DNA of 33,886 nucleotides from a virus, in IMG/VR virus record IMGVR_UViG_3300020453_000172, positions 1 to 33,886 of that record; one strand, written 5' to 3'. Positions 7,018-28,617 of the stretch are shown in pieces. The notes under the pieces were generated by a model. It saw only the letters and a list, made by a program, of their open reading frames with translations, was not told the DNA's origin and did not search any database. The stretch's first letter is position 1, and every line of letters begins with the position of its first letter. The position numbers and the translations under genes were made by a program.

Positions 7018-7828
7018 CAGTCTCCTTTGTTACAAGATTAATTACATCAACAATGTCTATGTCACCATGCTGTTCGCACACGTCATAGTACGGGCAGTAA
7101 TTACACTCCCAAGGAATTTCTGTTCCCCAATACGACCGCAAACCTTCCGGTATAACACCAGTATTCAGGTAGCTTTTAGCCATACGTGCATGGTCTTCTA
7201 AAAAATACGTAGTAGCTGTACTAATAGGTGTTCCACTTTCATCAAACGAATCATAAATATCGTAAAGCCACTCAACCATGTCGCCAGCACGAGCGCTATC
7301 TTTCCAACGTCCCGGCGTAGCATCACTACACATGTAAACCAAATGTATTTTTGTTACACCTAACGCTAAAGCATATGCACACGCTTGAAACAAGTGCTCT
7401 TCTTTGGGCCCTTCGTTTCGTGCTTTACGAAATCCGTAGTTTCGCATTGTTTTAATTTCTAAAACAGTTCCATCACGACTACTCGGATTACTATGCGACG
7501 CATAATAAACACCATCAGCATGACCAGACGTTAAACACTCAGGGATACTGACTTCAACTTCACACTCGAAATTAGGCACCCGTTCTTTAAACGCTGACTG
7601 AATATGCTCATGCATTATGTTGCCTATTTCTTTAGCAACAAACCCATTCACAGCATTAGGTCCTGCTTCTATGCGAGGCAATCCCATTCCATCAAACACC
7701 TGCTTACGTGCACACGTAGTCACATTAGATATTCGAAGGAAAGAACCGTCTGCGGTAGGTTTACTCGCAGGATGACGTATGTAATCTTCCAGCACACTTT
7801 GTGCCGGACCCGTTTCGTACTGCATCAT
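7001..7828 (-). CDS. Cas4/RecB-like PD-(D/E)XK exonuclease with Fe-S cluster cysteines
   Basis: A 275-residue protein starting at ATG 7828 (a second ATG follows directly) behind AAAGGGAG. The nuclease core is visible as GNIMHEHIQ (H73), TSGHADGV (D105), VLEIKT (E124-x-K126) and QACAYALAL (Q148...Y152), the RecB motif order. One cysteine near the N-terminus (C39) and three near the C-terminus (C242, C245, C251 in CNYCPYYDVC) reproduce the 1+3 cysteine pattern that holds a 4Fe-4S cluster in Cas4 and AddB. It probably resects DNA ends to feed the annealing protein, whose gene it overlaps by 17 bases. No CRISPR array or cas1/cas2 is present, so a CRISPR role is not implied. Confidence 0.85.
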   Translation of the reverse strand: MMQYETGPAQSVLEDYIRHPASKPTADGSFLRISNVTTCARKQVFDGMGLPRIEAGPNAVNGFVAKEIGNIMHEHIQSAFKERVPNFECEVEVSIPECLTSGHADGVYYASHSNPSSRDGTVLEIKTMRNYGFRKARNEGPKEEHLFQACAYALALGVTKIHLVYMCSDATPGRWKDSARAGDMVEWLYDIYDSFDESGTPISTATTYFLEDHARMAKSYLNTGVIPEGLRSYWGTEIPWECNYCPYYDVCEQHGDIDIVDVINLVTKETDESVK

Positions 7829-11171: not shown

Positions 11172-11327
11172 TTATCTCCTTTTACCGACATTCCATGCTG
11201 CCCACCATATCCGACCTACCACAAACGTAGGAACAAAAATAGGTACACAACTAAGTACCCTCATCCAAACCAGTTCAGGATCTACCAAACCAAAAACCAG
11301 TTCAAAGTCCATAACATTTACAACCAT
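11172..11327 (-). CDS. Small hydrophobic membrane protein (51 aa), possible holin
   Basis: Reads leftwards from ATG 11327 with AAAGG ten bases upstream; its stop lies two bases before the next start, and its last codons (AAAAGGAGA) supply the ribosome-binding site of the gene at 11169. Residues 20-46 (for example VLSCVPIFVPTFVVGRIWWA) form one likely membrane segment, and the end is basic (NVGKRR). Single-pass proteins of this size encoded near a lysozyme can be holins or pinholins, but there is no direct evidence here. Confidence 0.55.
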   Translation of the reverse strand: MVVNVMDFELVFGLVDPELVWMRVLSCVPIFVPTFVVGRIWWAAWNVGKRR

Positions 11328-11755
11328 TTACTAAATGCCTTTCTGATAGTGAATACTTACGTTCTCCCGGGGGGGAGAGGCACAGCACTACAGCCGAGGT
11401 ACGAGGCTGGCGCAGTGACCAATGTTTGACCGCCCAAAGCCCCTAAAGCTTTTGGGGCTCAATGCCCCGGAAGCTTTATAAGATCGGGTTGGGGGTCCGG
11501 GGGAGGGGGCGATCTCTCGCCTCCGCCCTCCGGTCTGATCCAAACCGAAGAGTTTGGCGTCCTGCCGAGGGCGTTACTCGGCCCCCGAGCGGGAAGCGGG
11601 ATATCTTTGGGCTGGGGGCGGGCTGCCCAGAATTTCTGAGAGCGTCGTTGTTGTCTCCAGAAATTCTAGGAGCAGGGCGCTCATAAATCATTTGCCCCGC
11701 AGGGCCCCCGGAGGGAAATTTTTTTTGGGGGAAATTACATGCTCGACCCCAAAAA
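11328..11755. other. GC-rich non-coding block of consecutive hairpins
   Basis: There is no believable gene in this stretch. GC content is about 63% in 11461-11580, against roughly 35-45% in most coding parts of the window. Successive stems are TCTCCC/GGGAGA (11363-11378), CAGCC/GGCTG (11391-11409), AAAGCTT-tt-GGGGC / GCCCC-gg-AAGCTTT (11445-11477), a 37-base hairpin with GAGGG/CCCTC and GGCGA/TCGCC (11497-11533), CCAAAC/GTTTGG (11540-11557), GCCGAG/CTCGGC (11564-11582) and AGAATTTCTG/CAGAAATTCT (11629-11667). A further GCCCC at 11439-11443 can compete for GGGGC at 11454-11458. A structured RNA or replication control region is inferred. Confidence 0.6.
11419..11436 (+). repeat. Left copy of 18-bp perfect inverted repeat
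   Basis: CCAATGTTTGACCGCCCA. Its exact reverse complement is at 13605-13622, 2.2 kb away. Weaker matching continues on both sides (GCGC-x-GTG outside, GCCCC inside), giving roughly 35 bp of related sequence. The pair encloses the two leftward genes at 11816-12764 and most of the non-coding region. Confidence 0.85.
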
Positions 11756-11816
11756 GCACAAAGGGCCCTCCTGGGCTCACGCACTACGAGTCCAAGAGGG
11801 CCGATTTTCTTTGTGC
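11751..11816 (-). terminator. Strong leftward intrinsic terminator
   Basis: On the minus strand GCACAAAG and CTTTGTGC (11756-11763 and 11809-11816 region) close a hairpin with inner arms GGCCCTC and GAGGGCC, followed at once by TTTTTGGGG. The first arm overlaps the stop codon of the gene at 11816-12532. This is a typical Rho-independent terminator and should separate that gene from the hairpin block beyond it. Confidence 0.75.
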
Positions 11817-12532
11817 TAGAAGCTCACACCAGAAGTGTCACCGGGTTTATCGACCGAGCTAGTGTCAAAGTCTGCTTTACGTTCCTTGCGGACTTTGGAC
11901 TGTGCTCGACGAACGTCGACCATAGCGGCGGCTATCTCTGACACTGCGTCATCTTGGATCTTGCGTATTTCTTGCAATCTCCACATAACGACCTTTTCGC
12001 CAGCGTTCTTGTGTGGCTGGCCATTCTCGTCGAAGTCAGGCCACACGGCTACTTCGTTGTTTGCGTTGTACTCGTAACGAGAATCGTCAAAGCTCCAGCG
12101 GCATATCGCTGGCTTCGTGTCCCGTGGCGTTTTGTCGGCTGTTTCTGGGCCTACCGGAATTTCTGCGACATGCCACATGACGCAATCTTCTTGCGACATG
12201 AACTCAATTTTTCCCGAGTTGTTTTGCTTGCCTCGGGTGTGCTCACGATGTGCACGCAGGAACGACACGTTGGCTTGTTCGTGAATTTTATACGAACCCC
12301 AACCTTCTGTTCCGATCATCGGTTCGTCATCTATCGAATCGCATTGCACATCGATAGACGTTAAACCGTTTTTTATCGTACGGGCTTCAAGTAATCCCTG
12401 AAGCTCGACGATCCTCTGATCTAGTTGCTGCTGTGCTCGATCGAACGCATCCGATCTATCGCCACGCCGATCAACATCGGCATTTTGATTTATCTCTTCT
12501 TGTTTTTGTTCTTGCTCTGATTTGTTAATCAT
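11816..12532 (-). CDS. Hypothetical protein, coiled-coil N-terminus (238 aa)
   Basis: Starts at ATG 12532 with AAGGA about ten bases upstream. Residues 1-50 are Glu/Gln/Asp/Arg-rich and likely coiled coil (QEQKQEEINQNAD, then FDRAQQQLDQRIVELQGLLEA). Residues 60-190 are mixed alpha/beta with many Trp and acidic residues (TEGWGSYKIHEQANVSFLRAH, CVMWHVAEIPVG, ICRWSFDDSRYEYN). The end is helical and basic. I do not recognise it. It is more GC-rich than its neighbours, lies within the 18-bp inverted repeat pair, and is followed by a strong terminator. With the small gene upstream it forms a separate two-gene leftward unit next to the putative origin, so a role in replication or host takeover is possible. 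Confidence 0.65.
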   Translation of the reverse strand: MINKSEQEQKQEEINQNADVDRRGDRSDAFDRAQQQLDQRIVELQGLLEARTIKNGLTSIDVQCDSIDDEPMIGTEGWGSYKIHEQANVSFLRAHREHTRGKQNNSGKIEFMSQEDCVMWHVAEIPVGPETADKTPRDTKPAICRWSFDDSRYEYNANNEVAVWPDFDENGQPHKNAGEKVVMWRLQEIRKIQDDAVSEIAAAMVDVRRAQSKVRKERKADFDTSSVDKPGDTSGVSF

Positions 12533-12545
12533 TTTTATTTATTCC

Positions 12546-12764
12546 TTATTTTTGGGTATCCGCTGTTGCGGCTGGGTGTTCGACTAGGTCTGGGGAAAGT
12601 TCCCGCAGAATACGTCGAGCGACTAGGTTGCAGTCATGCTTTACCGCATGACCACATTCACACATAGACCAATGGTCTGTTCGTGTTGCAAGGTGCACAA
12701 GTTCGAACGGGCGGTGATGATTCCAAAAGGAGGACATCATCCACGCTTCTGACTGATTTGCCAT
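12546..12764 (-). CDS. Small His/Cys putative zinc-binding protein (72 aa)
   Basis: Starts at ATG 12764 behind AAAGGA. WSMCECGHAVKHDCNLVARRIL places Cys-x-Cys-x-His and His-x-Cys close together, a plausible metal site, with further histidines upstream (WNHHRPFELVHLATRTDHW). The remainder is a helix with an acidic and Ala-rich end. Not recognised. It is the first leftward gene from the promoter at 12792-12820, about 20 bases downstream of the predicted start site, and is therefore probably expressed early. Confidence 0.6.
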   Translation of the reverse strand: MANQSEAWMMSSFWNHHRPFELVHLATRTDHWSMCECGHAVKHDCNLVARRILRELSPDLVEHPAATADTQK

Positions 12765-12782
12765 AGCTATCCTTTGTTTGGG

Positions 12783-12805
12783 TTGTTCTCGATTGTATCG
12801 AACAA
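12783..12805. promoter_or_regulatory. Palindromic operator candidate over the leftward -10
   Basis: TTGTTC and GAACAA form a perfect 6-bp dyad with an 11-base centre that also contains TCGATT/TATCGA half-symmetry. It covers the -10 hexamer of the leftward promoter, the usual place for a repressor site. No repressor gene is identified with certainty; the winged-helix protein at 7998-8369 is one candidate binder. Confidence 0.5.
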
Positions 12806-12820
12806 ATCAGATCTAATCAA
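12792..12820 (-). promoter_or_regulatory. Sigma70-type leftward promoter
   Basis: On the minus strand TTGATT (12815-12820) and TACAAT (12792-12797) are separated by exactly 17 bases. It points into the genes at 12764 and 12532, and a start near 12785 would leave a short leader with the AAAGGA site. This is the best-formed promoter seen in the leftward arm. Confidence 0.65.
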
Positions 12821-12939
12821 TTACAAATACAAGGTTTAGCGCTCGGATGAGTTGCGAGCCGACAAACTCTCGACTCAGCTAGTCGGTTTGTTTCCCGACG
12901 CACTGATTCGAGACTTCGAGCCGACAAAGCGCACTGCTA

Positions 12940-13003
12940 CTCGACAGGACTAAATCGCCACGCCGCTTGCTTGCGGCCAAGCGATTTATTCCGTGTAGTC
13001 GAG
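12940..13003. repeat. Three-tier perfect hairpin
   Basis: Outer CTCGAC/GTCGAG (12940-12945, 12998-13003), middle TAAATCGC/GCGATTTA (12951-12958, 12981-12988) and inner GCCGC/GCGGC (12962-12966, 12973-12977) with a six-base loop TTGCTT. The middle and inner stems are separated by a symmetric three-by-three internal loop. All stems are perfect, a degree of order unlikely by chance. Confidence 0.7.
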
Positions 13004-13098
13004 AAGCTGTAAGCGACTCGGCACTTTGAGAGGCAAGTCATCGAGGGCGACAATCGAGCCATGGTAAGACGCCCCAGCTACAAGCCCAATCGTCAAAG

Positions 13099-13145
13099 AA
13101 TCGATAGCTTACGATTGCGAGCGCTCGCAGCAATCGTTATCGATT
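13099..13145. repeat. 47-bp near-palindrome
   Basis: Ends AATCGATA and TATCGATT, arms containing ACGATTGC and GCAATCGT, and a perfect 14-bp centre TGCGAGCGCTCGCA at about 13116-13129. Two three-base offsets interrupt the arms. Such a structure could extrude as a cruciform, bind a dimeric protein, or fold as an RNA hairpin. Confidence 0.7.
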
Positions 13146-13240
13146 CCGGACGATCTTGGGATGCCGGCTGTGGTGGATTGCCAGCAGATCGAGTTAGCCC
13201 GGACACAACACCAATCAATCGTTTTGGCTCGCAACACAGT

Positions 13241-13344
13241 CGCTCGCTAAACACACAGGGAGCGGTAGCGAGCGCAAAGACCATCACGATTATTTGATCG
13301 AGAACAACGAAAAGTCTTTGCTTCTTTGGGCTTTGGCAAAGAAG
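13241..13344. repeat. Three abutting perfect 8-bp hairpins
   Basis: CGCTCGCT/AGCGAGCG (13241-13248, 13267-13274), GCAAAGAC/GTCTTTGC (13274-13281, 13314-13321) and CTTCTTTG/CAAAGAAG (13321-13328, 13337-13344). Each begins at the base where the previous one ends, which looks like one designed fold rather than scattered repeats. Confidence 0.7.
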
Positions 13345-13604
13345 TCGTGCCGAAGGCATCACGGCCGCCAGCCCTAAAGCCACAAATTCCACCACCAAAC
13401 TACACCACCAGACCAACCAACAAGCCACGCCACCTCCCTTCACCAGCCATCTCTAAAGCTCACACACCAACAACACACAAGCATCCAACCCCCTAACACA
13501 CCACCAACCCCAACAGCAATCTCTGTAGTCTTGCTGGCTGGGGGTGGTTTGCTTGGTTTAGTTGGTACCCCCTACCCTTTGACTGAAGCTGAGTGGGTTG
13601 GGGC

Positions 13605-13622
13605 TGGGCGGTCAAACATTGG
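13605..13622 (-). repeat. Right copy of 18-bp perfect inverted repeat
   Basis: TGGGCGGTCAAACATTGG, the exact reverse complement of 11419-11436. It lies in the G/T-rich part of the divergent region about 300 bases before the first rightward gene. Confidence 0.85.
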
Positions 13623-13925
13623 GCACGGCGCTGGGGTGATGTGCCGAACCCCCCCTCTCTACATACATGACTATCGTTGTTTTGGGTAGTTTGGTTCAGG
13701 TGTTTGTTCGTGCGTGGTTATGTCCTTGGTATCCTCCGAGTGTTGAGGCCTCTCTTGCCTTGACCTAGCCGTGCGGTACTGGTCGCTCCGTGCCCCCCGG
13801 TTGGGCCGTCGTGTCTGGACACGGAGTCAGATGCCCCTCTGACGGGCGATCGAACCGTTGTTAGCGGCGAGTGCGTTTGTACTGTATCATTTTGTGACGG
13901 GGGGTTCTACTGTTTTGGAGTTTTT

Positions 13926-22300: not shown

Positions 22301-24968
22301 ACTTGATCCAGATGATGTTGCTACTGCACGTCGGTTAGGACAAGAAGCAGAAGAACTACAAACAGCTACTCGTCTTTTAGAAACACAAGCTGAAAATCTT
22401 ACTGTTCACGAACAAATGTTAAAAGACAAACTTAAAGCATCTAACAGAGATCTTTACGACAATTTCGATAAAGTCGGTTTGTTAGCTGCTGAAAGCGGAT
22501 ACAACAACTTTTATGTTGGTGGTTATTCAGTAGAAAATGCTTTTGGAAATACCCCAACAGACGTATCTATTTACAAAAACGCAATTTCTTCAGACAATTC
22601 AATGCGTCAAATTTGGGATGGCACATCAGTTGTTCAACGCCGCACAAACCGGCAACGTTCTCGTGAACAATACGATGTAATGGATACGCAACAACGGCCT
22701 GTTTTTGCTAAAGCGTATAACGACACAGTTAATAGACAATGGTTACCTAAAGGTGATGCAAACGGACCATTTCAAAAATTTATGCGGTTGTTTTGGGAAG
22801 GCAAAACAGACGAAGAAATATTTAGATTTATGCAAAACGAAGGCAGAGTTGTAAGAGATGCTTTCGGAGATGAACTAGCAAATCCAGAATCACTGCGTAA
22901 TCACATTGAAAAAATACGTATTGAAGCAAATGCTTACATACCTAATCTTCCTGAGTTTGCACACTTACGTAAAAAAGCAGCAACTGGCGGACAAATTGAT
23001 TGGGTAAGAGACATAGTTCCAGTTATTGAAAAACGATTTAATGGCAACGTAGAAGAAGTACGTCAAGCCGCAAATACAAACGACTTTGGAAAAGTAGTAG
23101 CAGATGCTTCTTTCCAAGACATTGTTGATAAAAAAGTATTACAAGTACGAGTTATGGGGTGGCTTGATAACGCATTTGAAAATATAGGCACAATGCCAAC
23201 CGATGCTTTAACTAGAAGCACCGTGTTTAACGCTGTCTACCAGCGAGAAGTAGCACGTCAACTTGGCGGTCTTGAAAATACTCCTAACAATTTTAGATTG
23301 ACAGGCAAAACAGTAAAGCAAATAGAAGATCGAGCCCGTGTAGTTGCTATGTCAGAAACAAAAGATCTTCTTTATGATCTTGCTGAACGAGGCAGGTTTG
23401 AAGAAATAGTTTCAAACTTAATGCCGTTCGTTGGAGCGTGGCAAGAAGTTGTTACCCGATGGAGCGGTATAGCGGTTGACAATCCTTTAATGATTGCCCA
23501 AGTAGTTCGTAACTGGCGTTTGTTAGACGCAGAAGATGACGAAGGTACAAAACTTTCAATATTCCGTTTGCCAGATATTTTAAAATATGAATGGCAATAT
23601 GGAGCAAACGTAAAGCTATTTGGCAAAGCATCAATTCTTGCAGATACTGCTGTAAATCTAAACGTTAAATCAGCTTCAATGATTGGTGGATTACCCGGAG
23701 TTGGGCCACTTATTAGTTACCCGGTTTCTGAAGCAGTAATAGCTAATCCAGAACTTGAAGATGCAGTTGGATGGATACTTCCTTTCGGAGTTTATGAAGG
23801 ACAAAGATCTCTTTCCAGATTTATTTCAGCTTCTACATCTCCATGGCAACGAGCAGTAGCAGGTTCTTACACAGGAGGTCTTGGATTAGATACTCCTGAA
23901 CGTGCAAAAACAATGTTGCGTATCACAATGGATCTTGCTGCCGAGTATGAAGCAGGTGGCGACACTATTGATAATGAATACGACTGGGGTGTTTTTGAAG
24001 ACGAAGTAGCACGCCGCACAAATCAAGTTTTAATGATTCGTGCTTTTGGTGCTTTAAATCTTCCTTTCTCATTCAGAATGCAATCACCTCATTGGTCAAT
24101 CATTGAGGAATACCACGAAGTCTTAAAAGAAAACGGTGTTGATGCAGCAGACACATGGTTATTACATAACCATGCAGATCTTTGGGTTGTAACTGGCCGT
24201 CAAACAGCAGCAGCAGGTGTAGCTACAGCAACGTTAGAAGGACAAAGAGGATATTTACGACACAAAGAATTATCTGACGCTTGGCCTGAAATTGGTGGGT
24301 TTATTATTGGACGTGTTGGCGCAGCAGATGTTCGATTTAACTTTAGTAAAGCAACTCAAATGAAAGAGTTAGAAGAAGGACGCCGAATTAATTTAACGCC
24401 TAGAGATATTTATGAAGGCGCTCAACAAACTCGTGGTTGGAAAACGTGGAACGAAGTTACAGACCACATTACTGATGAATTAAATGCAAAAATGCGGTTA
24501 GGTGAATCTGGAGATATACAAGCCCATCCAGAACTTCTTCAATTCCGACGAGCAGCGGCAGTAGCTAACGGACAAGAAAACCCTGCTTGGTACCGAGAGT
24601 ATTTAGCACCAAATAACCCGTATACAGCAGCACGCATAATGCAAGGATTCAGAGAAGTAATTTCTGATCCAACGTTTGATTACAGACCAGAATGGCCGTT
24701 TGTTCAACGCTTTGTTGATTTACATGATTCAGTTGCATCTTCTATGAAAGCAAGAGCAGAAGATAGCGGCAATCTTGAATTTTTAAAACTTAGTTATGAA
24801 GGGAACGTAGACCTTAAACGCAGTTGGCATGAAGGTGTAATAGAATTGCGTTTACGACCTGATTTCGTAGATATTTACGATCGTTACTTCAGCAAAATTG
24901 AATCAGTTGTACCTACTAATTTTCCTTGGAATTTCCCTATGATGAATCGCAATAAAGAGTTGACCTGA
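19287..24968 (+). CDS. Giant virion protein, probable internal/ejection protein (1893 aa)
   Basis: The longest gene in the window. ATG 19287 is preferred to an upstream in-frame TTG (19266) and gives a 14-base overlap with the gene before. The sequence is largely helical. About residues 750-830 include SVWSRSVLLRPAWPLRVIID, a pattern I associate with very large podovirus-type virion proteins. Residues about 937-961 (TGLGLLLAGPVGAMSFAGLY) form a hydrophobic membrane-like segment, followed by coiled coil to about residue 1050 (LRAEIDNLRKQVSELD). No catalytic motif is evident. Size, location between portal and capsid genes and the membrane segment suggest an internal protein ejected with DNA to span the envelope, like T7 gp16 in role. 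A tape measure is the alternative. Confidence 0.6.
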   Translation: MGIPSRASGIANAAFQATASGVELFTDIVKGVYDDEDEYDGVAGTIWGSWNDNVLGEGGVLQSLFGPEGVGGQIIGGLPEYDPETDPWWMAGPGALRTGGRPIFNAAFDAIDTVYEYGVDRPIAVAITLANAGLMDGFVLNYLDPRVWQQVNEILGVAQYGQILGDEFASWLPEGEGGGRSSGQALALMVNRTNILDPTEVERVEGTAQYKIMSGIADAAMQWYLDPSNIAGMAVRGAKASNIQKMKALVAEGNYQAVLDTTGYRNFKEAINDLSIQVDGLSEQFRKGQGFTKSDESLINKLSIQIWKAARKGNLGRGFKNFTIDQAKSYAVLSGGLDINKMDQAFDYLIRIQLGDVQALDDMRNIATDWVRSTLEGGLYAELLEVGDELKHLDQLEERIAFGLSDEAGDTAILFEEYPELMGERLDPASVMDTTKPTPLTADTTLTVDDIIENKNLIEQRLKQRQREIESELFINEYASMPFAAALIMKQERLRTMAQYVSNRGEHAGLNNFDEMTNADSDLVTAAANEILIENQINILDPLPQIGEMSKSGIAAKTFISQSKFGQSVGNNMIVRAIVEKIPHQLMNWDDPAQQVITFERMLRDAQNVVYDGVDLVTHTGRDIDAVLGRFTDLKTQREKREFFDSTVQGLNQGLVTLFHGKTAITDNMREMTSVLQRQWGRAQDTLREKARVDRRYSNSDYTIVDHASDGVIDRRYLPLTPAQLREASLVPRYDLYQQAFGDVPGTVPTTKFQKAMQDAAIAGKAGARATLGAAQKVSTAFTSVWSRSVLLRPAWPLRVIIDEAARSAATIGAQATIQGLASGMNDLRVAWFRKHGIDVGDPIMQEMLSELMAGQRADEVAALGPISATMQPAEFLPKRWKEWEDGPWELAPDDYNEILQSWNKAEAAGNTTRSTQELVEEVIAREYGAKRIFKRTALTTGLGLLLAGPVGAMSFAGLYYLQARNTLQRVARSEINANQMFALRQVAHGDLRAEIDNLRKQVSELDPDDVATARRLGQEAEELQTATRLLETQAENLTVHEQMLKDKLKASNRDLYDNFDKVGLLAAESGYNNFYVGGYSVENAFGNTPTDVSIYKNAISSDNSMRQIWDGTSVVQRRTNRQRSREQYDVMDTQQRPVFAKAYNDTVNRQWLPKGDANGPFQKFMRLFWEGKTDEEIFRFMQNEGRVVRDAFGDELANPESLRNHIEKIRIEANAYIPNLPEFAHLRKKAATGGQIDWVRDIVPVIEKRFNGNVEEVRQAANTNDFGKVVADASFQDIVDKKVLQVRVMGWLDNAFENIGTMPTDALTRSTVFNAVYQREVARQLGGLENTPNNFRLTGKTVKQIEDRARVVAMSETKDLLYDLAERGRFEEIVSNLMPFVGAWQEVVTRWSGIAVDNPLMIAQVVRNWRLLDAEDDEGTKLSIFRLPDILKYEWQYGANVKLFGKASILADTAVNLNVKSASMIGGLPGVGPLISYPVSEAVIANPELEDAVGWILPFGVYEGQRSLSRFISASTSPWQRAVAGSYTGGLGLDTPERAKTMLRITMDLAAEYEAGGDTIDNEYDWGVFEDEVARRTNQVLMIRAFGALNLPFSFRMQSPHWSIIEEYHEVLKENGVDAADTWLLHNHADLWVVTGRQTAAAGVATATLEGQRGYLRHKELSDAWPEIGGFIIGRVGAADVRFNFSKATQMKELEEGRRINLTPRDIYEGAQQTRGWKTWNEVTDHITDELNAKMRLGESGDIQAHPELLQFRRAAAVANGQENPAWYREYLAPNNPYTAARIMQGFREVISDPTFDYRPEWPFVQRFVDLHDSVASSMKARAEDSGNLEFLKLSYEGNVDLKRSWHEGVIELRLRPDFVDIYDRYFSKIESVVPTNFPWNFPMMNRNKELT

Positions 24969-26533
24969 TGGCTGACGAAGACAACCCAAATTCTGCTGCA
25001 AAGCAACGTTCAAAAGCATTGAGATACTCAGAAACATACGAAGGTCCTGCTGCTGTGAGCCCAATGTCACGGGCACTTTTTGACGCATTATCTTTAGGTG
25101 GTTCTACCGCTGAATTAGCTGATTTAATGATCCAAGCATCTGATGATCCAGAAATATTAGAGTATGCCCAAGTAACCCAAGGCATTCCGCCTTATAGATC
25201 AAATGTTGACCCTAGAGGATTTCAACCCGGCAATATGATACCGGGTATCAATGATCTTTTAATGGCCGCTCCGTTTCCTGTAAGCATTCTTGGATTTGGT
25301 GCTAGTCGGATGCAAGAAGGCGAAGAGTCAAAACTTGCTCGTCAAGAAATAAAAGAAATACAAAAACAATTAGAAGGTTTTGAACGTTTAACTGAAGATC
25401 AAAAATTAGAAATGACAGAAGAACTGGCTTACCCCGGTGACTTTGACATGATTATTGATCTTTACGATATGGGTAATGTTTTAGGCGAACGAATGCCGCT
25501 TTTCTACGGCAATCTTAGTTTGACAGAACGAGGCTTATTCGCCGAAACCCCCAGCTATAAAACTTTAACTGCTGAACAAATCAAAAAAGCAAATCCTGAT
25601 TGGGACGATCAACGAGTTAATGATCTTCTTACACCGCCTTTTGACAGTTCAGCGGGTCGTGCTCTTGGTGCTATGAATGCTCGTTATGCATCAATAATGG
25701 TTCCTATTTCTGCTCAAAGAGCACAGTCAATGGGTTACGCACAAGACGCTATTGGAGAAATGGAGCGTGTAGATTACCAATTGCTAGCTCCGGGTGAAGA
25801 CACTCCACAAGGTTTAGAAGCATGGGGGCCTGAAGCAGAAGTCCAAATTGAAGAAGGCGAATTTGTTTTCGGTATAGATGACGCTCTTGCATATTATGAA
25901 GCGTTACAACCAGATCAACAACGACAATTCGCTATGAGTCTTTTAGCGTTAGGGTTTATGGATGAACAATCTGCACAAGGAGTGCAATGGTTGCTTGACC
26001 CTGACCAAGTGTTTACTGATGATGCTGTAAGACTTGCTTTAACAAAAGCAGCAGACGATTACGGTCGAGAATTACAAGATGTTTTTGGTGTTGCTGACCC
26101 AACGAACTTAGAAGAAACAGGTATCGAAGGCGAAGCCCGAGGCAAATTTATACCTATGTTAGGGCGTCCCGGTGGCATGTTCGATACTGAAGAAGCTCAA
26201 ATAGACGATTTTGAATCGTTTATTCGTCAAGCTCGAATAACTGCCGGGTATCTTGCTTCAGTCCCAACTGAATCAATTACACAAACAGTTAATGAATGGT
26301 CGTGGCGTAACCTTGGCAGAGCAGCAGATCCAAGTCTTATTCGTATGGGTTTAAATCTTGCAACTGAAATTAATGAAAGTCCTTCGAATTTGAAACCCGG
26401 TGGAGTTAGGTTTGGAGAACTTGCAGCAGGTGTTGAATCAGGGTTACGTGCAGGTGCTAGCGAAGAAGAACTTAAATTTAATCAAGGCAATGTATTAAAC
26501 AGAGTTTTGACAGCATATTTGGCGAGAGGCTAG
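24968..26533 (+). CDS. Probable virion protein (521 aa)
   Basis: Overlaps the giant gene by one base (TGATG). The protein is acidic, with a charged helix near residues 119-153 (ESKLARQEIKEIQKQLEGFE) and many loops rich in Asp, Gly and Pro. No enzymatic motif is recognised. Its place in a coupled row of large virion genes with similar codon use supports an internal or head component acting with its neighbours. Confidence 0.5.
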   Translation: MADEDNPNSAAKQRSKALRYSETYEGPAAVSPMSRALFDALSLGGSTAELADLMIQASDDPEILEYAQVTQGIPPYRSNVDPRGFQPGNMIPGINDLLMAAPFPVSILGFGASRMQEGEESKLARQEIKEIQKQLEGFERLTEDQKLEMTEELAYPGDFDMIIDLYDMGNVLGERMPLFYGNLSLTERGLFAETPSYKTLTAEQIKKANPDWDDQRVNDLLTPPFDSSAGRALGAMNARYASIMVPISAQRAQSMGYAQDAIGEMERVDYQLLAPGEDTPQGLEAWGPEAEVQIEEGEFVFGIDDALAYYEALQPDQQRQFAMSLLALGFMDEQSAQGVQWLLDPDQVFTDDAVRLALTKAADDYGRELQDVFGVADPTNLEETGIEGEARGKFIPMLGRPGGMFDTEEAQIDDFESFIRQARITAGYLASVPTESITQTVNEWSWRNLGRAADPSLIRMGLNLATEINESPSNLKPGGVRFGELAAGVESGLRAGASEEELKFNQGNVLNRVLTAYLARG

Positions 26534-26535
26534 TT

Positions 26536-28617
26536 ATGGCTAGGTTTGTTGATAGAAACGAAAATTGGAGTAAAGCTTCTACAGTTCCTGAAACACAAGT
26601 AGCTATAGCCCTTTACAACATTGGTGTTAGAGGAAAAGATTTAACAGATCTTTTAGCTATTGCTTATGGAGAAAACGGCCATCCTTGGAGTACCGGACGT
26701 ATCGCTTTAAATGGCAGAAACAAAAATCTTGGGGTTGAAGATTCGTGGGGGATATTTCAAATAAATCGAGATCCAACAGCAAGAGGTGGTTCTATAGGTG
26801 ACGTAATTTGGGAACGACCGGGTTACGAATCAAAAGGCCAAGCGTTTAATTCTTTAGAGGGCAATATGAAAGCGTTAGCAGTAACGCTTTCTGCGTTTTT
26901 AAAAACTAAAGACGGTGCTGTTCGTAAACAACGAAGCGGTAGAGGTGGCGTTTTTAATCATTGGTCGGCTTATAAAAGCGCAAATTGGGAAGCAAGAACA
27001 ACTAGAGCTTTTGATGTAGCTAATTCAGTTTTGCCTGATTCTTGGAATAGAAACGAAACTCGTTGGGATACGTTAAGACGTAAAACGTGGACTGATCCTC
27101 TTATAGTTGGTGAATCTAAAGCAAACATTGGGCTTGTGCAGTTAATGGCAGGGCTCGACGTTGATGGAATAGCTGGCTCAAAAACACGAGAAGTAGCAGA
27201 GCAAGACGCTAACGGTTTTTGGCGGTTAAAGCCGGGGACTCCTGTTGATCCTAATATTTCTGGACAATTTGAACCGGGAGAGTACGAATACCCAGATTAT
27301 GAATCAATAGTTGGAAGACGTGCTCCAGTTGTTCCCGGTGGCGGTCCTGTTATTTGGAATGATCTTGGCGAAATTGTAAGCGGAGATTCCCCTGTAATGG
27401 GTGAAGAAATTTCTTTTCAAGACGTTAATAACGATGGAGAAACTGTAACAACAGAACAATTTGAAGGTGGTAACCCAGAAGGTTTTGACCCTTGGGCTGC
27501 TGGTGATTTTGCTACTTTTAATCCTACAGGACAACTTGTAAATGCTCCCGGTGAAATAGCTGGTGCTCTTGGCTTTTTGCGTGGACGTGCTGACGCAAAA
27601 GTATTTGATCCTAGAACTGGGCAAGAATACGATTTTATTTCGTATATGGAATCGTCGCTTAGAGGCGATGAACCCCCTGAAATAATTGCTCAATGGATTG
27701 ATACTTGGCTTCCACGCACAGCTTGGTATCAAAATACGCCTTCAACTGTTCGGACACGAATTGCTGAATGGTATTCACAAGGAATGGGCGCAGGTCAAGA
27801 TGCATGGACTGGCGCTCGAAAAGGCAAAGTACAGCCTTATTATGATACTTTGCAAAATCTTATGGCAAGAGAAGGGTTTGAAGCTCCAGACGAAGCGTTA
27901 TGGGAAGCAGCAAAACTTGGATATTTCCATGACTGGGATGAAAACAAATTCATTAGATTTTTTAGTGGTGAAGTAGTTGACGGTGAAAAAAGTAGTCAAG
28001 GCGATGTTTTCTTTTCAACAGCAACATCACCTGCTGGCAATATCGCAAACATAAAATCAGCTATGCGAACATCTGCAAATACTTATTTAATTTCGATGAC
28101 ACCTTCAGAAGAACGTGCATTAGCGAAACGTGTTTTTACTGGCGAAGTTCCAGTACAAAACATTGATCAAGTTTTTCGAGAAAAAGCTCGTTTGCTTTAT
28201 CCTTATTTGGCTGACTTTTATGATGCAGGCGGCAACACAATAGAGTTTTTAAATCAATACGATCCGATAGTCCAACGAATGTTAGGGCGTTCTGCTGAAT
28301 GGAATGGCCGAGATTATTCAATGGGGCAAGCTGCTTTAAATGGTGATTTAACTGATTTGTTTTATTACAGACAACGTGGGGGCAATTCGTTAGATCAAAT
28401 ACAAATGGGAGATCCAGAAACTCCGGGTGCATACCAAGCTTTAGATCCGTTTGGTAGACCAGAAAATATTACGCCTAAACAAGATCGACCTCTTACAGTT
28501 CAAGAATTTAAATTAGCTATTAAACGTAGCGGAGAGTACCAACAAAGTGGCTATGCGTTAGCTGAAATGGGTCAACTTCTTAATTACTTAGGTGCAGGAA
28601 TGGGAGCAACACCGTAA
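26536..28617 (+). CDS. Virion-associated lysozyme-like protein (693 aa)
   Basis: Residues 38-80 contain LLAIAYGENGHPWS (likely catalytic E46) and SWGIFQINRD, the E and G-x-FQIN signatures of SLT/goose-type lysozymes. Residues 197-222 (NIGLVQLMAGLDVDGIAGSK) look like a peptidoglycan-binding repeat of the type found in PG_binding_1 domains. The remaining 470 residues are unassigned, acidic and loop-rich. An enzyme built into a long virion protein usually opens the cell wall locally during DNA entry. It is distinct from the small lysozyme at 10125, which better fits lysis. Confidence 0.75.
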   Translation: MARFVDRNENWSKASTVPETQVAIALYNIGVRGKDLTDLLAIAYGENGHPWSTGRIALNGRNKNLGVEDSWGIFQINRDPTARGGSIGDVIWERPGYESKGQAFNSLEGNMKALAVTLSAFLKTKDGAVRKQRSGRGGVFNHWSAYKSANWEARTTRAFDVANSVLPDSWNRNETRWDTLRRKTWTDPLIVGESKANIGLVQLMAGLDVDGIAGSKTREVAEQDANGFWRLKPGTPVDPNISGQFEPGEYEYPDYESIVGRRAPVVPGGGPVIWNDLGEIVSGDSPVMGEEISFQDVNNDGETVTTEQFEGGNPEGFDPWAAGDFATFNPTGQLVNAPGEIAGALGFLRGRADAKVFDPRTGQEYDFISYMESSLRGDEPPEIIAQWIDTWLPRTAWYQNTPSTVRTRIAEWYSQGMGAGQDAWTGARKGKVQPYYDTLQNLMAREGFEAPDEALWEAAKLGYFHDWDENKFIRFFSGEVVDGEKSSQGDVFFSTATSPAGNIANIKSAMRTSANTYLISMTPSEERALAKRVFTGEVPVQNIDQVFREKARLLYPYLADFYDAGGNTIEFLNQYDPIVQRMLGRSAEWNGRDYSMGQAALNGDLTDLFYYRQRGGNSLDQIQMGDPETPGAYQALDPFGRPENITPKQDRPLTVQEFKLAIKRSGEYQQSGYALAEMGQLLNYLGAGMGATP

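Follow-up and report, generated by a model that had tools for sequence, protein, structure and literature searches.

RNA-based prophage origins of replication were described in 2020 in a few mycobacteriophages, with mutual nucleotide identities of 41-71% and no description of their structure (PMC7157519). The published limits of these origins are RedRock 27232-27897, LadyBird 25875-26522, Alma 26448-27060 and Gladiator 24464-25062 (Wetzel et al. 2020, PMC7157519). Published RNA-seq shows an origin non-coding RNA (ncRNA) that lies directly upstream of parA and is transcribed in the opposite direction; when this RNA was deleted in Alma and LadyBird, stable lysogeny was lost (PMC7157519). The present study concerns the 33,886-nt virus record IMGVR_UViG_3300020453_000172 (the whole of which is referred to here as the window), from an uncultured, mainly marine phage family whose records are incomplete. 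Between its leftward early genes and its rightward late operon is a largely non-coding island that carries at least three structured elements. One of these, R1, is a conserved structured RNA whose core is also present within the mycobacteriophage origins. Because RNA with this core initiates DNA replication in some mycobacterial viruses, R1 is probably an RNA-based origin.

The features of R1 and its surroundings are as follows, in window coordinates, with helices numbered on the plus strand.

13720-13871, probably minus strand: R1, conserved structured RNA with helices H1-H6, defined by a covariance model
13833-13867, minus strand: R1 core common to the mycobacteriophage origin RNAs, comprising H5 (13833-13836/13844-13847) and H6 (13855-13857/13865-13867), each with a 7-nt loop
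13881-13889, minus strand: extended −10 promoter TGATACAGT, with a predicted start at approximately 13874, directly at H6
13677-13719, minus strand: low-G, A+C-rich tract of the putative leftward RNA (88% G+T on the plus strand)
13640-13676, strand not assigned: conserved element TGTGCCGA-C-run-TGACTATCG, which nearly all relatives carry at the corresponding position
13361-13520, plus strand: A+C-rich tract (up to 92%), with clearly similar tracts in approximately 10 of 28 relatives

The window terminase led to 156 relatives in IMG/VR, and the segment 13634-13930 is the sole part of the island that is conserved in most relatives. A profile search found R1 approximately 1.0-1.8 kb upstream of terminase, down to 63% terminase identity. 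The six helices were derived from a 35-sequence alignment, and the covariance model built on that alignment scores 147 bits in the window. It matches 52 of 82 loci, once per contig, in a single orientation and at a constant place upstream of terminase. When the sequences were aligned with the model, 91% of pair cells were standard, as against 38-52% in slid controls, and 24 of 31 pairs showed double changes; this alignment is fitted to the model, but an unfitted MAFFT alignment agrees (88.6% standard, 21 of 32 pairs double-changed). R1 matches no Rfam family and, with a folding z of approximately 0, is detectable through covariation alone. Pattern scans of IMG/VR yielded more family members, as well as unrelated contigs carrying H4-H6 only. 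Among bacterial genome contigs, only one phage contig binned to a metagenome-assembled genome (MAG) and one weak match (14.6 bits, lacking H6) were found. A contig of the window phage family, PARV01000048.1, lies inside a Gammaproteobacteria MAG, probably as a result of a binning error.

A 61-nt core query matched A4 mycobacteriophages and Gordonia phages weakly, and elements from IMG/VR prophage contigs pointed to Gordonia Coeurvirus as well as to many cluster A phages. In AnnaL29, EricB, 20ES, LadyBird, RedRock and Alma, the element is situated directly upstream of parA, in a non-coding or unconserved region. The R1 matches fall inside the published origins of RedRock, LadyBird and Alma and, in EricB (subcluster A6), at the position of the origin of Gladiator (A6). 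The model scores in the mycobacteriophage origins were 30-38 bits, with E-values that are rough owing to a short calibration. The helices have changed by compensation: H5 in EricB and Alma is GCCG/CGGC in place of GCCC/GGGC, with the loop retained, and H6 likewise varies by compensation across these phages. In a 29-sequence core alignment that includes RedRock, LadyBird, Alma, EricB, 20ES and AnnaL29, 96% of H5-H6 cells are paired (slid controls, 32-46%) and seven of nine pairs show double changes. Since the H5 match helped to choose many of the 29 sequences, it is H6 and the exchanges in H5 that provide independent evidence. On these sequence comparisons, the homology of the R1 core with the mycobacteriophage origin RNAs is well supported.

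Several observations bear on the strand from which R1 would be transcribed. The motif TGNTANNNT was found on the minus strand, within 75 nt to the right of H6, at 36 of 54 loci, against a background of 3.8% and 11 of 54 for the plus-strand control; the 36 loci include two contigs outside the terminase family (L116 and L108). The minimum-energy fold of the minus strand of the window contains H2-H6 as separate hairpins, whereas that of the plus strand lacks them, and pair probabilities are higher on the minus strand for both H3 (0.76 vs 0.34) and H4 (0.80 vs 0.51). The 29-sequence alignment has eight GU and three AC cells, in favour of the minus strand, and the published strand of the mycobacteriophage origin RNA is that of R1 minus. 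Taken together, the published strand, the promoter and the folding make the minus strand considerably more likely than the plus, a call that depends in part on distant homologues; the direction of neighbouring genes was unreadable in some prophage contigs.

To the left of R1, 34 relatives have a tract of 43 to more than 100 nt that averages 92% G+T on the plus strand; its sequence is unconserved, while the corresponding A+C-rich composition is found in nearly all relatives. The conserved element at 13640-13676 could be a promoter-like site for rightward transcription, or else give the leftward RNA a G7 run (13649-13655); about half of the relatives, and the window with them, have such a G-run.

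The right block of the island is thus best read, with more confidence than doubt, as the core of an RNA-based replication origin. The mechanism envisaged is modelled by analogy on ColE1 RNA II, whose G-run helps to form the primer hybrid, and on the mycobacteriophage origins that are RNA-based. In the window, a leftward ncRNA would start at approximately 13874 from the extended −10 promoter. Read in this direction, the helices emerge in the order H6-H5-H4-H3-H2, so that the nascent RNA would fold H6 and H5 at once, then H4-H2. It would next pass through the unstructured A+C-rich tract, after which, in about half of the relatives and in the window, the G-run would face a C-run in the template. 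The RNA could then remain paired with the template as a hybrid and serve as the primer for DNA synthesis close to where the two gene arms diverge. The A+C-rich tract would suit Rho-dependent termination equally. The cumulative GC skew has its minimum within the island, and the window encodes SSB, an annealing protein and a nuclease, with no RepA detected, as would suit an RNA-based start.

A number of points weigh against this interpretation. The likeness to the mycobacteriophages resides mainly in H5-H6, and H1-H3 are weakly or not alignable there. H1 and H2 pair better on the plus strand, to which the wobble pairs of H1-H2 and a lineage count (19 to 9 without H1) also point. The GC-skew minimum possibly just tracks gene orientation. 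No parA, parB or RepA was found among the scanned window proteins (some small open reading frames were unscanned, and the record may be incomplete), and with parABS and RepA undetected the plasmid-prophage context is absent. Finally, a subclade of four contigs (L029, L030, L033 and L034) is without a convincing R1, and L021 has a weak one (23.5 bits). In these five contigs (e.g. L030 7595-7860 and L033 8453-8719), the promoter-like element and the G+T tract are kept, and of R1 only an H6-like hairpin, GTTGTTAGCCAAC.

The alternative that survives best, though unlikely, is that R1 serves not as an origin but as an early leftward ncRNA made in abundance, with an action in trans or a stabilising role as a 5′ leader, in the manner of the P_left ncRNA of cluster A mycobacteriophages. 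Among phage transcripts, the P_left RNA of L5 and D29 ranks first in abundance, and the region it comes from is toxic (PMC5712189). The A4 likeness is, however, the weakest of the set (blastn E of approximately 2; 31.9 bits; H6 of only 3 bp), the D29 right end has no R1 match (L5 itself was not in the collection), and the clearest homologues of R1 are origins. The two roles may coexist in R1.

The first hypothesis considered was that R1 forms the 5′ leader of the late operon, is read rightward and controls antitermination or translation. This would fit its unvarying location immediately before the first late gene within the terminase family, the promoter-like element to its left and the wobble pairs of H1-H2. 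The hypothesis was demoted once a promoter had been detected on the minus strand and the strand of the published RNA was known, and it now appears improbable: the mycobacteriophage RNA over the element runs in the opposite direction, the minus strand gives the better pairing of H3 and H4, and in other phages the element does not head a late operon.

Less probable again is a role of the hairpins at the DNA level, such as that of a site for packaging or for single-strand initiation. Wobble pairs are few overall, with near-symmetric GU and AC cells, and R1 lies near the terminase gene and contig ends; against this, the homologous element is transcribed into RNA, the contig ends are scattered rather than sharp, and the element is mid-genome in the parABS mycobacteriophages. 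A large ornate RNA of the GOLLD or ROOL type, as the initial annotation had suggested, would agree with the presence of several structured RNAs within one phage but is scarcely credible, as an Rfam scan gave nothing at the gathering score or at E values up to 5 and no tRNA genes were found. The 'complex origin' that the same annotation offered as its alternative is the better of the two, because the R1 core is situated within RNA-based mycobacteriophage origins.

The remaining features of the island and its borders are listed below.

11377-11815, plus strand: left structured RNA with compensatory stems, ending in an intrinsic-terminator-like hairpin (approximately 11760-11815)
11410-11443, plus strand: left copy of an inverted repeat, lying towards the 5′ end of the left RNA, with an 88% match to the right copy
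13600-13631, minus strand: right copy of the inverted repeat (similarity to about 13660), with an 88% match to the left copy
12836-13256 (420 nt), strand not settled: middle structured element, closed end to end by GTTTAGCG/CGCTAAAC, with a folding z of −6.1
11172-11327, minus strand: short leftward gene adjoining the left block
11816-12532, minus strand: leftward gene of 238 aa, with 68-72% identity in the related contigs L004 and L081
12546-12764, minus strand: leftward gene of 72 aa, with 82% identity over 56 residues in L081
13926-14054, plus strand: gene of 42 aa at the head of the rightward operon, with homologues that adjoin R1 in many relatives

The annotated arrangement of about 1.6 kb of non-coding DNA in two blocks around two leftward genes is borne out, the blocks 11328-11815 and 12765-13925 together amounting to approximately 1,649 bases. 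The left block is GC-rich as claimed, with 150-nt windows reaching 67%, although its overall G+C content is 57.6% rather than about 63%; the right block has 53.2% and the rest of the genome 42.6%. Hairpin potential is likewise well above that of the rest of the genome: folding z values below −3 occur in 28% of the windows inside the island and in 3.7% of those elsewhere, and z is −5.0 for the left block and −6.1 at position 13051. The assertion of at least 14 stems, most of them perfect, is overstated as to perfection: only three perfect stems of at least 7 bp with a loop of at most 12 were found, and the island stems are mostly imperfect. Related contigs were checked for an absence of covariation and a loss of stems, and covariation was present, in R1 (52 matches), in the left RNA (three sequences) and in the middle element (two), in agreement with the prediction of structured RNA.

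In the left RNA, compared among the window, L081 and L004, 13 helices have 98.3% of cells paired, with 13 double-changed pairs as against 4.5 in shuffles, and the wobble pairs favour the plus strand (10 GU and 0 AC vs 6 and 6). The opening sequence of this RNA is an inverted copy of 13600-13660. In the middle element, compared between the window and L081 only, 22-23 pairs have changed on both sides, for example GAATCGATA/TATCGATTC vs GAACCAAGA/TCTTGGTTC. A search for sequence homologues of the two elements found none beyond L081 and L004; they are limited to the window subfamily. Both copies of the inverted repeat are altered in L081, with complementarity retained. The idea that the repeat (11410/13631) closes one giant RNA or an intron was considered and rejected, as no supporting protein family was found and L010 retains part of the left copy while lacking the left RNA. 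Loop-loop kissing between H5 and H6 was also rejected, being inconsistent across clades on inspection by eye.

Four relatives (L010, L013, L008 and L018) have hairpin-enriched islands of their own, different in sequence, directly to the left of R1. That of L010 includes, at 7361-7527, a nearly perfect 20-bp closing stem (TGCCATGTGGTCGCTAGGCC) around approximately 125 nt of hairpins. The hairpin CTGGACTC...GAGTCCAAG occurs at several island places (L081 985-1012 and 2473-2505; window 11764-11802) and resembles a small dispersed element. Many contigs (L005-L084) terminate, at scattered positions, less than 2.5 kb upstream of TerL, perhaps as an assembly effect of the hypervariable hairpin region.

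Genes run leftward from approximately 12.8 kb down to 5.2 kb and rightward from 13.9 kb, the latter including those for terminase (phrog_38), portal (phrog_104), a giant 1900-aa protein and the major head protein. An N4-like virion RNA polymerase with hairpin promoters was rejected, since the 1900-aa protein has no motif or family match. The 238-aa protein has no Pfam or PHROGs match and belongs to no known family, and the 72-aa protein has no Pfam match. The closest cultured relatives of the head protein are from the Streptomyces Beephvirinae (approximately 40% identity), which suggests, but does not prove, actinobacterial hosts. R1 was not found in the Beephvirinae, although their structural genes are related.

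R1 is a structured RNA family not in Rfam, and its covariation-supported model connects the mycobacteriophage RNA-based origins with dozens of uncultured phages. It supplies named helices for mutation, by which replication start without an initiator protein in such phages becomes directly testable. A wider proposal, to which slightly less than an even chance is assigned, is that R1 represents a broad unnamed class of origin RNAs in actinobacterial and related phages, serving as the plasmid origin of parABS prophages and as the main origin of phages without parABS or RepA, with the left and middle RNAs as regulators or partners of the RNA-primed start.

Among known systems, GOLLD and ROOL are likewise structured phage RNAs, but the window RNAs are smaller and differently built, with no model match and no tRNA neighbourhood (PMC12286853). 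The put-type antiterminator RNA of HK022, marked by suppression of termination in cis, entered the comparison as an analogy only. The P_left ncRNA of cluster A phages (L5, D29 and Kampy) resembles R1 as a leftward early ncRNA heading the early arm, and A4 phages carry an R1-like element at the P_left position, which is suggestive only. The R1-like element at the right ends of Peaches and Kampy (L145 1590-2050 and L148) comes after several tandem leftward TTGACA-N17-TAGnnT promoter-like sites, which overlap stoperator-like GATGTCAAG repeats. On the minus strand of the D29 right end, GGTTCGATTCCTGGCTACCCA, downstream of P_left, resembles a tRNA T-arm and acceptor end. With ColE1 RNA II/RNA I, the proposed mechanism shares a structured RNA followed by a hybrid-capable G-run, a comparison of mechanism and not of sequence; in contrast to ColE1, only about half of the R1 relatives have the G-run, and a counterpart of RNA I was not identified. 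The RNA-based origins of the non-RepA parABS cluster A mycobacteriophages (RedRock, LadyBird, Alma, Gladiator and Et2Brutus; PMC7157519) differ in that the window has no detected adjacent parABS or RepA, adds helices H1-H4, the A+C-rich tract and the G-run, and places R1 between divergent gene arms beside terminase, in uncultured phages whose structural module is different. What the two have in common is the H5-H6 core, with its 7-nt loops and compensatory changes, and an RNA strand that corresponds to R1 minus.
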